Positions 9,357-49,014 of a DNA stretch of 64,000 nucleotides are shown one piece after another. The notes beneath the pieces were generated by a model. The model was given only the letters and a program-made list of their open reading frames with translations, was not told where the DNA came from and searched no databases. The stretch's first letter is position 1; each line of letters starts with the position of its first letter. Location of the stretch: the NCBI RefSeq assembly GCF_000020125.1, contig NC_010676.1:868001-932000 (forward strand). The letters are read 5' to 3'. The translations under genes and the position numbers were made by a program. The stretch is from Paraburkholderia phytofirmans PsJN. GTDB taxonomy: Bacteria; Pseudomonadota; Gammaproteobacteria; Burkholderiales; Burkholderiaceae.

Positions 9357-11015
9357 TCAATGCAGCAGCGTCATCTGCACGACCTTCACGATCACCAGCG
9401 CGACCGCCACGATCAGATAACCGCGTAGCACGCCCATCCAGACCCGCTTGGACATCGTCAGTTGCGGGGCCGGCAGTTCGTCCAGAGGCGGCATGCGCCA
9501 GGCCGCGCGCGTTTCCTTCGACCACCTGAGCTCGCTGTCGTGATTCGACGCGGTCCCTGTTTCCCGCCGCAGCTTGCGGACCACGACGGTCGCCGCATAG
9601 CCTGCCACGGCCATCAGCGTGCCGCCTGCGAGCACTTCGAGCATCGCTTCGCCGGTGATATCCGGATACATGACGGAAGCCGTGAGAATGATGGATAGCA
9701 TGACGAGCACCCAGACCACTGCGCCTGTGAAGACGTTGAGCTTCTTCGAGTTCACCCACGGTCCGAGCACCGCGCGGTCGTTGCACAACAGCAGCAGAAA
9801 CACGGTCGCGCTCGGCAGCAGCACGCCGGCGAGCGTCTGCACCGCTTCCGTCAGAAGGCCGAGCGGGCTGCCCGGAATCAGCACCAGCGTCGCCGCGGCC
9901 GCCACGATGCCGAAGTAGACGAGATAGAAGCCCTTCGCATCCGACACGCCGCGATGCAGCGAGTGGCGAATCTTGAAGACGTCGCCGATCGCGTAGGCGG
10001 TGGACAGCGACACCGCCGCCGCGCCGATGATGCACGCGTCGAGCAGCGCCACGGCGAACAGCACGGCGGGCGTGCGGCCGGCGTAGCTTTCGAGGTCGGC
10101 GATCACGCCGCCCGCGTCGGTGAAATGGCCGGATTCGGGCTTGCCCGCGTAGAGCGCCGCGCAGAACGAGATCATGGCCACGGCGCCGATCATCACGAAG
10201 ACGATCCCGATCCAGAGATCGGCCTTTTCGTACTTCATGAAGCGAGGCGTGATGCGTTTATCGACGATGTAGCTCTGCTGGAAGAACAACTGCCACGGCG
10301 CGACGGTCGTGCCGACAATGCCGATCACGAGCAGCATCACGTCGCTGAGTTTTGAGTGCGCGGGCCAGCCCGGAATCAGAAAATCGTGCGCCATCTGGCT
10401 AACCAGCGGGTGAATCGACACCAGCACGGGCACCAGCAACAGGCTCATCAGGCACAGCACCACGGCGAAGCGTTCGAAGCGCCGGAAATTGCCCGTGCTG
10501 ACCGCGGCCATGGTCACCGCCGCGGCAATGCAGACGCCGGCCACTTTCGAAATGCCGAAGAACTGCAACACGAACGTTATACCGATGAACTCGGTCAAGA
10601 TCGTCAATGCGTTCAGGATGAACAGATCCACGACGCTGAAGGCACCCCAGAACTTGCCGAAGCGCTCGAAGATCAGCCGCGCATGACCCACGCCGGTCAC
10701 CGCGCCAAGACGCAGCACCATCTCCTGATTGACGAACAGCACGGGTACGAGCAGCAGCATGGTCCACAGCAAAGTGGTGCCGTAGTTCTGTCCCGCTTGC
10801 GTGTAGGTGCCGAAGGCGCCGGCATCGTTATCGCCGACCATCACGATGAGGCCGGGCCCGAGAATCGCGAGCAGCGTGCGCACGCGGGCCCACCAGCTGT
10901 TGCGCGCCCCCGTGTCGTGATGGGCGATGGTGCCGAGCGCGCCCTTGATGTCGCCGAGGTGCGCGTCGTCGAGAACGGCGCTGCGGGGTGGTGAGACGTT
11001 GATTGGAGTGGACAT
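9357..11015 (-). CDS. Nramp-related divalent-cation transporter, non-canonical metal site
   Basis: The 552-residue protein is a LeuT-fold Nramp-superfamily transporter with about 11-12 membrane segments. Canonical Nramps (MntH) carry DPGN in TM1 and MPH in TM6 for Mn2+/Fe2+. Here TM1 reads GDNDAGAF (61-68) and TM6 reads TVAPWQ (237-242), so the TM1 Pro, the Asn and the TM6 Met are absent. Loss of these residues is known from the Nramp-related Mg2+ transporter group, so Mg2+ uptake is a better guess than Mn2+, but this is inference. The gene has a leader of about 800 nt with a promoter at 11826-11855 that resembles that of the MgtC-family gene. The N-terminus (about 45 residues) is hydrophilic. 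Confidence 0.85.
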   Translation of the reverse strand: MSTPINVSPPRSAVLDDAHLGDIKGALGTIAHHDTGARNSWWARVRTLLAILGPGLIVMVGDNDAGAFGTYTQAGQNYGTTLLWTMLLLVPVLFVNQEMVLRLGAVTGVGHARLIFERFGKFWGAFSVVDLFILNALTILTEFIGITFVLQFFGISKVAGVCIAAAVTMAAVSTGNFRRFERFAVVLCLMSLLLVPVLVSIHPLVSQMAHDFLIPGWPAHSKLSDVMLLVIGIVGTTVAPWQLFFQQSYIVDKRITPRFMKYEKADLWIGIVFVMIGAVAMISFCAALYAGKPESGHFTDAGGVIADLESYAGRTPAVLFAVALLDACIIGAAAVSLSTAYAIGDVFKIRHSLHRGVSDAKGFYLVYFGIVAAAATLVLIPGSPLGLLTEAVQTLAGVLLPSATVFLLLLCNDRAVLGPWVNSKKLNVFTGAVVWVLVMLSIILTASVMYPDITGEAMLEVLAGGTLMAVAGYAATVVVRKLRRETGTASNHDSELRWSKETRAAWRMPPLDELPAPQLTMSKRVWMGVLRGYLIVAVALVIVKVVQMTLLH

Positions 11016-11135: not shown

Positions 11136-11291
11136 TTACGAAGCGGCTCGCGAGACAGGACGCGAAGCGAGCGCCCTGACGCGGTGCCAGGCAACGGTGA
11201 GCCAATGCGGCTTGATGCCGTGCAATGCGAGAGCGGCGTCGCTGTGGGTGTGGGTTTGCTGCAGTGTCGGTACGAGGATAGCGAGGTACAT
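11136..11291 (-). CDS. leader ORF 3 of the Nramp-like gene (51 aa)
   Basis: A 51-residue frame starts at ATG 11291 with GGAG 8 nt upstream (cccggagaaaaaaac). It reads MYLAILVPTLQQTHTHSDAA and ends SRPVSRAAS. Its stop lies 120 nt before the transporter start. It could encode a small protein or act as an upstream ORF in the transporter leader. It has a hydrophobic start and no recognisable domain. Confidence 0.45.
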   Translation of the reverse strand: MYLAILVPTLQQTHTHSDAALALHGIKPHWLTVAWHRVRALASRPVSRAAS

Positions 11292-11358: not shown

Positions 11359-11487
11359 TCAGGCGCGCGGCGAATCAGGTCTACTTGCTTTCCTTGGGCA
11401 AATGATTGTTTGCCGGCCCGCTCGGTCGTGACTGAGCGGCAATTGAACGGCAACCAGGCGGCGTATGGGATAACTGTCACTGTCCAT
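11359..11487 (-). CDS. leader ORF 2 of the Nramp-like gene (42 aa)
   Basis: A 42-residue frame begins at ATG 11487 behind a perfect AAGGAG with 6-nt spacing. It starts MDSDSYPIRRLVAVQLPLSH and ends PDSPRA. The acidic opening followed by Pro and Arg pairs recalls the general style of regulatory leader peptides of Mg2+ genes, but I see no direct homology. It lies inside the presumed leader, 67 nt upstream of leader ORF 3. It may be a regulatory leader peptide rather than a functional protein. Confidence 0.45.
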   Translation of the reverse strand: MDSDSYPIRRLVAVQLPLSHDRAGRQTIICPRKASRPDSPRA

Positions 11488-11694: not shown

Positions 11695-11717
11695 CCGTCT
11701 GCCTGCTGGCAAGACGG
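11695..11717 (-). promoter_or_regulatory. conserved leader hairpin upstream of the Nramp-like gene
   Basis: On the minus strand CCGTCTTGCC (11717-11708) pairs across the loop AGCA with GGCAGACGG (11703-11695), giving 9 bp with one bulged T. The MgtC-family leader has the identical 5' strand, a different loop (TTCG) and a changed but still pairing 3' strand. In both leaders the hairpin starts 35 nt after the TGA of the short TTG ORF. Confidence 0.5.
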
Positions 11718-11751
11718 CGGCTAGAAAAAGGGAGCGCGGGCGTCGGGCCGG

Positions 11752-11796
11752 TCAGGCAGTGAAACTGTTCGAAAGTCGACTACTGGTGGTGTCCAA
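11752..11796 (-). CDS. leader ORF 1 of the Nramp-like gene (14 aa, TTG start)
   Basis: TTG at 11796 opens a 14-codon frame, MDTTSSRLSNSFTA, ending in TGA, about 30 nt after the -10 box at 11826. The MgtC-family leader has a matching TTG frame (MDSSSSTRRASIRPIA) at the same place. The two differ by an in-frame 6-nt insertion and share the stop. A second overlapping frame, ATG 11801 (MPWTPPVVDFRTV...), also shows amino-acid similarity to the MgtC leader but has no normal start there. No strong Shine-Dalgarno is visible for either. Confidence 0.3.
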   Translation of the reverse strand: MDTTSSRLSNSFTA

Positions 11797-11825: not shown

Positions 11826-11855
11826 ATTTTAGGCACTGCCGCAAGCGGAAGTCAA
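11826..11855 (-). promoter_or_regulatory. sigma70-type promoter of the Nramp-like gene leader
   Basis: TTGACT (11855-11850) and TAAAAT (11831-11826) are separated by 18 bp, followed by TCGCC. The block GCCTAAAATTCGCC differs by one base from the corresponding block upstream of the MgtC-family gene, which has the same TTGACTT box and the same 18-bp spacing. Transcription would start near 11819, leaving a leader of about 800 nt. Confidence 0.55.
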
Positions 11856-47912: not shown

Positions 47913-48620
47913 TTACTCCGGCGTAGGCTCCGCTTCTCTGGCTGTCCAACTGACGCTGGAGACGCTCTTTTCCATGCTGATGCGGCTGGCCATCTGTTCG
48001 AGCTTCGACTGATCCTTGGGATGCATCTTCAACGTCGCCGTAACACGAATGCGTCCTGGGTCGTTTTCGACGTCCTCGCTAGTCAGGCTTTGAAACGACA
48101 GCGGCGTCGAATACATGGAGTTGGAGACGGCGGTACGAATGTGAATCTCGTCGGCTTCCCGGCAGACGATTGTCAACACGTATTCGCGGACCAGGTCGGC
48201 GTTCGATACCGGCGTCGCGTTGATCGTACGGCTGACTTCGCGCAGCACGGTGTTGGTCAATAGCACGACCAGGGTTCCGGCGAGCGCCGGCCCGTAATGG
48301 CCCGCGCCGCACAACACGCCCACGGCGGCCGAGCACCACAAGGTCGCCGCAGTGTTGATCCCCTGAATGGAACCCTTGTCGCGCATGATCACGCCGCCGC
48401 CGAGAAAGCCGACGCCGGAGACGACGTACGCCGCGATCTGGGTGATGCCCGCTGTGCCGTTGCCGGTCAGTACGCCGAGCGTGACGAACAGGCATGCGCC
48501 GCTCGCGACCAGCGTGATGGTGCGCAAACCTGCATTGCGCTGACGCATCTGCCGTTCGAGGCCGATCGCGACGCCGCAAGCGAAGGCGGCGAGAAGCCGC
48601 CAGACGAATTCAATGGTCAT
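47913..48620 (-). CDS. MgtC/SapB-family protein
   Basis: The 235-residue protein has an MgtC membrane domain (GVAIGLERQMRQRNAGLRT, YVVSGVGFLGGGVIMRDKGSIQGINTAATLW, about residues 1-140) and a soluble C-terminal domain resembling the ACT-like tail of MgtC. MgtC proteins are induced by low Mg2+ and aid growth in Mg2+ poverty, in some cases by acting on ATP synthase. The gene has a leader of about 355 nt whose promoter, short ORF and hairpin resemble those of the Nramp-related transporter at 9357-11015. I place the start at ATG 48620 (MTIEFVWRLL), the family's usual N-terminus. Confidence 0.9.
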   Translation of the reverse strand: MTIEFVWRLLAAFACGVAIGLERQMRQRNAGLRTITLVASGACLFVTLGVLTGNGTAGITQIAAYVVSGVGFLGGGVIMRDKGSIQGINTAATLWCSAAVGVLCGAGHYGPALAGTLVVLLTNTVLREVSRTINATPVSNADLVREYVLTIVCREADEIHIRTAVSNSMYSTPLSFQSLTSEDVENDPGRIRVTATLKMHPKDQSKLEQMASRISMEKSVSSVSWTAREAEPTPE

Positions 48621-48845: not shown

Positions 48846-48868
48846 CCGCTCGCCCGAAGGCAAGACGG
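48846..48868 (-). promoter_or_regulatory. conserved leader hairpin upstream of the MgtC-family gene
   Basis: CCGTCTTGCC (48868-48859), loop TTCG, GGCGAGCGG (48854-48846) on the minus strand form about 9 bp with one bulge. The 5' strand is identical to that in the Nramp-like leader (11717-11708). The loop and 3' strand differ but pairing is kept. It starts 35 nt after the short leader ORF, as in the other leader. Confidence 0.5.
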
Positions 48869-48902
48869 CGACAGACCAGGACTGGCGCGGAAATCTTGCC
48901 GA

Positions 48903-48953
48903 TCAGGCGATCGGGCGAATCGAAGCTCGACGGGTACTACTGCTACTGTCCAA
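48903..48953 (-). CDS. short leader ORF of the MgtC-family gene (16 aa, TTG start)
   Basis: TTG 48953 opens MDSSSSTRRASIRPIA, ending TGA at 48905-48903, about 31 nt after the -10 box. The matching frame in the Nramp-like leader, MDTTSSRLSNSFTA, is two codons shorter, and both are followed by a CGGC after the stop. No clear Shine-Dalgarno is present, so translation is unproven. Confidence 0.3.
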   Translation of the reverse strand: MDSSSSTRRASIRPIA

Positions 48954-48984
48954 GATCGTGATTCCGGGTAAATGAACTGGGCGG

Positions 48985-49014
48985 ATTTTAGGCGGCTCTG
49001 CAAAGTTAAGTCAA
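48985..49014 (-). promoter_or_regulatory. sigma70-type promoter of the MgtC-family gene leader
   Basis: TTGACT (49014-49009), 18 bp, TAAAAT (48990-48985), then CCGCC. The block GCCTAAAATCCGCC differs by one base from that upstream of the Nramp-like gene. Transcription would start near 48978. Confidence 0.55.

Follow-up and report, generated by a model that had tools for sequence, protein, structure and literature searches.

Two leader sequences in the window, i.e., the whole stretch of 64,000 nt from Paraburkholderia phytofirmans PsJN that was analyzed, probably represent a translation-controlled attenuator that sets the expression of Mg2+-related transport genes. A probability of about 0.6 is assigned to this reading, which is based on sequence features and on analogy with known systems. 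One leader precedes an MgtC-family gene and the other a transporter gene of the Nramp type. Both are on the - strand and consist of a common promoter, a putative TTG ORF (uORF1; 14 or 16 codons) and a hairpin 35 nt past the stop codon. The segment directly after the uORF1 stop, or across the stop in MgtA-type leaders, is termed region 1 and is complementary to the 5' arm of the hairpin (region 2). The 1:2 and 2:3 helices are mutually exclusive because regions 1 and 3 (the 3' arm) are both complementary to region 2. As in an attenuator, sequence complementarity predicts two alternative helices that are positioned by the end of an ORF.

In the leader of the MgtC-family gene the promoter is at positions 48985–49014 (-35 TTGACT at 49014–49009, an 18-bp spacer and -10 TAAAAT at 48990–48985). 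The putative uORF1 (48903–48953) has a TTG start and 16 codons plus TGA, and its peptide is MDSSSSTRRASIRPIA. Region 1 (48892–48900, GGCAAGATT) is directly 3' of the stop and complementary to region 2, and the hairpin (48846–48868) consists of region 2 CCGTCTTGCC, the loop TTCG and region 3 GGCGAGCGG. The leader of the transporter gene has the same layout, also on the - strand: a promoter at 11826–11855 (TTGACT, 18 bp, TAAAAT), uORF1 at 11752–11796 (TTG start, 14 codons plus TGA, peptide MDTTSSRLSNSFTA), region 1 directly 3' of the stop at 11741–11749 (GGCCCGACG, with two mismatches to region 2) and a hairpin at 11695–11717 (region 2 CCGTCTTGCC, loop AGCA, region 3 GGCAGACGG). Promoter scans of the two leader regions, in which 0.1 and 0.2 sites were expected, found one site in each, exactly at the leader promoter. 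With a different spacer the promoter pattern gives chance hits only (15 matches vs 22 in the reversed control).

An earlier note on this DNA had described a block at 48846–49014 shared by the MgtC-family and Nramp-like genes. The coordinates are correct, and promoter, spacer, TTG ORF, stop and hairpin spacing agree between the two copies. The 6 nt (two codon) difference in uORF1 length, which keeps the frame, and the 35 nt from the last stop base to the start of CCGTCTTGCC (48903 to 48868 in the mgtC leader; 11717 in the other) were likewise borne out in both. The two window copies do not bear out the assertion of covarying 3' strands: their 5' arms are the same and the differences are confined to the 3' arms (GGCGAGCGG, GGCAGACGG), so that this pair shows no covariation. 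The outline of promoter, ORF and hairpin was sound, but region 1, two further uORFs in the second leader and the conservation beyond the family had been missed.

The MgtC-family gene (47913–48620, - strand) encodes a protein of 235 aa with the Pfam domains MgtC and MgtC_SapB_C; it scores 187 bits against NCBIfam PRK15385.1, under the cut-off of 255. The transporter gene (9357–11015, - strand) encodes a protein with a Pfam Nramp domain, and its closest PDB relative is 7qia (E 9.2e-47; the next match has 3.3e-18). The PDB match names 7qia just as a divalent metal cation transporter, and we take it to be EleNRMT. In NRMTs the binding-site Met of Mn/Fe transporters is replaced by Ala, and EleNRMT has an additional Asn to Gly change (PMC8806188, in excerpt). 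A comparison of the window protein with 7qia shows VAPWQLFF vs IAPWMMFF and NDAGAF vs NDAGGI; the selectivity Met is Ala, as in 7qia, and an Ala is present at the Gly of 7qia. The gene formerly called Nramp-like thus looks like an NRMT gene, of the Mg2+ branch of SLC11. Given the MgtC and NRMT families, both window genes would be part of Mg2+ physiology.

A covariance model was built from 36 same-genus leaders. In the strain's own 8.2 Mb genome the window leaders score 131.3 and 105.5 bits and are the only two strong copies, the next-best place having 17.6 bits; both window copies are among the 36, so that their scores are partly by construction and the independent support comes from the other 34 members. 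A genome search with such a model had been proposed in the earlier note, and it finds the element across the family and beyond. At E<=0.01, 193 of the 398 family genomes sampled have matches, in 11 of 25 genera and with up to six copies per genome, the weakest matches being doubtful. At E<=0.001 it is found in 22 of 399 genomes of the order, 4 from the same family and 18 from other families. Paraburkholderia-heavy samples inflate these counts, and motif conservation is partly built in since the relatives were found by a sequence model. Weak model matches resemble the scores of L062 and L038 (15–18 bits), so that such scores alone prove nothing. Two candidate copies, L221 and L224, look false and were rejected. 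Scanning genome contigs with a motif-only pattern yielded 87 stretches, of which the 80 listed belong to Paraburkholderia, Burkholderia, Ralstonia, Cupriavidus, Pandoraea, Trinickia, Robbsia, Pararobbsia, Duganella, Curvibacter, Chitinimonas, Sulfuriferula, Rhodocyclaceae, and MAGs called Burkholderiaceae or Proteobacteria.

Conservation upstream of orthologues, which had been set beforehand as a test of the element, differs between the two genes. The ORF, its spacing and the hairpin precede all 23 close same-genus NRMT loci fetched (L039–L061, 77–100% identical; further NRMT paralogues are outside this count), but uORF1 and hairpin were found at only 13 of 30 same-genus MgtC loci fetched (L009–L038) and are absent from 17. 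The distance from the hairpin to the NRMT start is approximately 585–775 nt in the same-genus loci. Among 200 genomes of the order, the present one included, uORF1 precedes 7 of 7 NRMT orthologues (E<=1e-100; L062, L318 and L319 judged by eye). Of 30 MgtA loci retrieved from the order sample, 24 show no clear uORF1. Individual loci show variations: the TTGAC promoter is lost in L047 with ORF and hairpin kept, uORF1 of L022 has a GTG start codon in the position of the TTG, and the stop in L023 is TAA.

The main genes downstream of the leader are NRMT, MgtA, a duplicated-permease ABC transporter and MgtC. The scan of the order gave 20 places outside the family: an Nramp-type gene follows at 11 (one 2.2 kb off, two just 38–39% identical to the query and one from a 69-aa match), MgtA at 5, the ABC transporter at 1 and no reference gene at 3, one of which has an OprB porin. 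From the motif-only scan, 81 matches in the listed stretches were examined, and for 63 the room exceeded 1.2 kb. These are followed by the ABC transporter (30, two of them untrusted 25% matches), MgtA (10), NRMT (9, plus 5 at about 2.1–2.2 kb), MgtC (3, 39–40% identical) or none of the reference genes (6). The reference set was chosen by us from genes seen, and several downstream-gene entries are the same place twice. One MgtA target that was checked matches TIGR01524 with 1278 bits. The occurrence of the same block before many unrelated genes had been named in the earlier note as a point against it. The block does precede other genes, but these mostly encode transporters (NRMT, MgtA, ABC) and MgtC, with a DUF6697-like gene after a variant leader. 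Together, the same-genus leaders, the distribution in family and order, and the target genes support the original proposal of a cis-regulatory leader for at least two cation-related genes. Some copies precede genes for MntH, a DUF6697-like protein, a TonB receptor or an HlyD/CusB-type protein, so that Mg2+ is perhaps not the only, or not the true, signal. MntH is a single case at 1.4 kb, and no claim is made for it as a target.

Several other arrangements were observed. The gene for the DUF6697-like small protein is found behind a variant leader (18 entries, some of them duplicated places) that lacks the TTGAC promoter pattern but is similar in its post-stop segment and hairpin, and whose ORF often reads M-x-IR-x-x-RPPS-x-F-x-A (L197, L182, L181 and others); no paper on DUF6697 was found in the open-access literature. 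L226 and L213 have an OprB-type porin gene interposed between element and NRMT gene, and in L222 an OprB porin gene is directly behind the element. In L223 two near-identical copies face each other around mgtA, one before the gene and one past its 3' end on the opposite strand. A conjugative plasmid of Burkholderia contaminans (L353, 4001–6360) has a leader match and an NRAMP-family gene beside mercury and cobalt/nickel resistance genes. A TonB-dependent receptor gene is behind the motif in L245. Inspection by eye shows a similar one in L265 and an HlyD-like gene behind the motif in L275, as in G094a.

The short upstream ORF of an attenuator would be the putative uORF1, whose predicted peptide is conserved and starts with MDSCSSRS or a near variant. 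The length is 10–17 codons, and 14 in 85 of 110 non-redundant ORFs, a count that leaves the DUF6697-type ORFs aside. Among the 110, Ser occupies codon 5 in 101 and Arg occupies codon 7 in 97; codon 4 is Cys in 69 and Ser in 25, and codon 6 is Ser in 80 and Cys in 18. The starts are TTG (93), GTG (10) and ATG (7). The search pattern demanded GAC or GAT directly after the start codon, with one exceptional start (two ORFs) written in, and Asp2 (108/110) and the start codon are therefore not independent evidence. Ser is encoded by both AGY and TCN at the same codons. These swaps, together with the alternation of TTG, GTG and ATG starts, point to a translated ORF under amino-acid constraint. The presence of CGA as codon 7 in 93 of the 110 suggests an extra constraint at the codon or RNA level. 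Beyond the family the C-terminal half of the peptide differs and the start is alike (MDSSSSRSCIGHTRAR, MDSCPSRSCSR); a divergent genus of the family has MDSCSSRSSIAL. For a candidate hairpin inside uORF1 (GTCGAT...ATCGAC), the individual base pairs are formed in between 12 and 21 of 24 sequences.

Pairing between regions 1 and 2 was assessed in the 36 same-genus leaders. In 33 of these, 5% or fewer of the shuffles of the 14 nt past the stop pair with the arm as well as the real sequence does, and in 30 no rival 14-mer in the tested upstream stretch pairs equally with region 2; the 36 include L046, a row that is meaningless as its start is misplaced. The window NRMT leader, with its two mismatches, has a shuffle fraction of 0.060. 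The 25 divergent entries comprise 19 from outside the family and 6 from divergent genera within it, some of them near-duplicates. A first, narrower test using the arm without the loop gave p<0.05 for 1:2 in just 9 of them, and 18 of 25 were obtained after widening to a longer stretch with the loop. Lineage-specific arms keep the 1:2 helix with at most one mismatch (GGCAGGACG / CGTCCTGCC; GGCGGAACG / CGTTTCGCC), and the same limit applies to further region 1 / region 2 pairs (GGCAAGGTA / TACCTTGCC; CGGCTAGACA / TGCCTAGCCG). When arms are swapped between leaders, the leader's own arm is better for 23 of the 29 distinct arms of 10 nt (mean of 13.0 vs 10.8), and 0 of 2000 permutations reach the observed mean; relatedness among the 29 arms is uncorrected, 15 of 44 arms (9 nt long) were left out, and the divergent-leader set contains the doubtful hairpins G140b, G186d and G381a. 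Within the genus, covariation in the 1:2 helix is not above shuffles (253 of 500 reach the double changes).

The 2:3 helix is paired in 97.9% of the cells of the 36-leader alignment. One pair changes from C-G to U-A in 7 of the 36 leaders; 428 of 500 shuffles likewise have a single pair changed on both sides, and none has as many such cells. A consensus fold from a MAFFT alignment of 24 divergent leaders was set aside, as the arms were misplaced because some hairpins are without the bulged base. A later table of 2:3 pairs in divergent leaders was not used because the hairpins had been chosen for pairing.

In the proposed mechanism a ribosome that finishes uORF1 would cover region 1 and allow the 2:3 hairpin to form, and a ribosome that stalls or leaves uORF1 early would free region 1 for pairing with region 2. 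If MgtL is a guide, complete translation under Mg2+-replete conditions would be the OFF state and poor translation at low Mg2+ the ON state, i.e., low Mg2+ would favor the state that lets RNA polymerase through. No terminator-like site is present on the leader strand in either window copy and no T-run follows the hairpin, so that the OFF state may be reached by Rho-dependent termination or a pause, rather than by an intrinsic terminator. We infer the signal, its sign and the exit step from the downstream genes, with MgtL and mgtP as models.

The 1:2 / 2:3 helices are arranged as in a classic attenuator, and the richness of uORF1 in Ser, Cys and Arg codons raises the alternative that these codons sense starvation for one of these amino acids, with the transport genes answering that amino acid or general translation stress. 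There is a precedent in Salmonella, where mgtP mediates the response to low charged tRNA-Pro in the mgtC leader (PMC3641672, in excerpt). Such a starvation response is unlikely here, however. The commonest targets are membrane transport genes and not biosynthetic genes, Ser, Cys, Pro and Thr replace one another at several such codons of uORF1, and the terminator-like site is absent from both window copies.

Mutual exclusion of the two helices would also be expected of a direct RNA sensor, or riboswitch, in which the binding of an ion and not translation selects 1:2 or 2:3 and the ORF is incidental. M-box riboswitches control NrmT genes in other bacteria (PMC4072509, in excerpt), and for mgtA the Mg2+-dependent folding of the RNA alone has been reported as sufficient (PMC11552253, in excerpt). 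An incidental ORF is difficult to reconcile with conserved residues and an ORF that is kept despite varied start codons and an in-frame length change, and the leaders have no Rfam match. We consider the direct sensor improbable, somewhat more so than the starvation response.

The promoter pattern is common to most leaders. In 10 of 101 leaders (L080, L085, L103, L174 and six more), compared with 4 of 2020 shuffled stretches, the -35 is preceded by a CTGCTTAACGAA-like box (2 or fewer mismatches) that starts at a distance of exactly 17 bp from it and is perhaps a regulator site; TCGTTTAACGAA in the window has 3 mismatches to this box and is outside the count. Both features would fit shared descent of a promoter and 5' end by duplication, with regulation by a transcription factor and passive RNA features, but this explanation has very little probability, as 4 of 6 MgtA and 10 of 10 DUF6697 copies have kept ORF and hairpin without the promoter pattern, and the arms change with pairing kept. 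In L030, upstream of an MgtC gene, a promoter of the same type is followed by a different leader with GGCAAGACC...GGTCTTGAC repeats, possibly a derived form.

The NRMT leader in the window has two additional ORFs on the - strand. uORF2 (11359–11487, MDSDSYPIRRL...; relatives read MPDSDSYP...) has the ribosome-binding site AAGGAG. A script finds uORF2, as M(P)D-S/C-DS with a ribosome-binding site, in 17 of the 23 same-genus NRMT leaders, with a tail that varies in length and sequence; the motif was not found by the script in L050 and L057–L061, although one of these six places, also present as L086 in the wider scan, reads MPDPEPC there. In a scan of 70 leaders, with the window mgtC leader outside and near misses such as MPDCDSYP uncounted, the strict acidic motif is present in 27 of 49 NRMT, 5 of 10 ABC, 2 of 6 MgtA and 1 of 5 MgtC leaders. 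Variants are MPDPEPCP, MPEPEPCS, MSDPDPSR and MPDPDSCP. An early acidic/Pro motif of the MgtL type is found in uORF2 of NRMT and some other leaders and not in uORF1. In MgtL the EPDP motif causes ribosome drop-off at low Mg2+ that leads to mgtA transcription (PMC11282234, in excerpt), and the drop-off is described in a second source as well (PMC11552253, in excerpt). uORF2 could add an MgtL-like test by Mg2+-dependent ribosome drop-off.

uORF3 (11136–11291, 51 aa, MYLAILVPTLQQ...) is downstream of uORF2 and has relatives in other NRMT leaders (MNFGLLLSQLPHVQESRVHYDAMLALH...). These ORFs have approximately 46–67 codons and typically read M-x-FGLLLSQLPHVQES-R-x-HYDAMLALH. There was no credible Pfam or NCBIfam match in the three members tested, the window copy having only a chance-level Pfam match (E 0.15). 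The annotation of the Burkholderia contaminans plasmid has a hypothetical protein of 46 aa in the interval that separates the leader match from the NRAMP-family gene.

A broader reading is offered tentatively, with the odds somewhat against it. The three-uORF cassette may be a composite sensor of cytoplasmic Mg2+ through the state of the ribosome, in which MDSCSSRS would be a new Mg2+-sensitive nascent-chain or codon motif coupled to the attenuator and followed by an MgtL-like drop-off. It would be a movable module before at least four unrelated families (NRMT, MgtA, MgtC and ABC) across Burkholderiales, and would mark the ABC transporter and the OprB-type porins as candidates for Mg2+ uptake.

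With Rfam 15 (4227 models) the whole window yields rRNA and tRNA only at gathering cut-offs. At E<=1 the NRMT leader stretch has two microRNA-type matches (19–21 bits vs a cut-off of 83) and the mgtC leader no match; five relatives gave one tRNA and two sub-threshold matches at L205 1161–1360, upstream of its element. The Rfam check suggested in the earlier note therefore reaches no existing family for the leaders. A description of the leader was not found in the open-access literature, subscription papers and preprints being outside the scope. The leader looks undescribed so far, although uORF control of Mg2+ genes is itself already known. If the attenuator reading is true, Mg2+ sensing by leader-peptide translation would not be an enterobacterial peculiarity, and a single regulatory code would be common to Mg2+-related genes of several families in a large order that comprises soil, plant and opportunistic bacteria. 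Studies of ribosome stalling would gain a new conserved leader peptide, and testable guesses would follow on the cargo of the associated ABC transporter and OprB-like porins.

Three known systems can be compared. The M-box riboswitch is also a leader RNA before the same kind of transporter gene, NrmT, mostly in Clostridia and Deltaproteobacteria (PMC4072509, in excerpt), but the leader described here is short, contains an ORF and is without an Rfam match. The Salmonella mgtCBR leader (mgtM, mgtP; Lee and Groisman 2012, PMC3641672, in excerpt) is similar in being a long leader before mgtC that has two short ORFs, alternative stem-loops and control by ribosome progress. It differs in that mgtP has Pro codons, whereas uORF1 is rich in Ser, Cys and Arg, and in that one leader type here serves several gene families in another bacterial order; the sequences were compared via Rfam only. 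The mgtL-mgtA system of E. coli and Salmonella differs in the place of the motif ORF, which in the present leaders comes second among up to three ORFs, behind uORF1 and its proposed attenuator. The two systems have in common a Mg2+ transporter gene downstream, mutually exclusive RNA structures and, as far as sequence alone can indicate, an early acidic/Pro motif in a uORF, which is EPDP in MgtL and PDSDSYP or PDPEPCP in uORF2 (PMC11282234 and PMC11552253, in excerpt).
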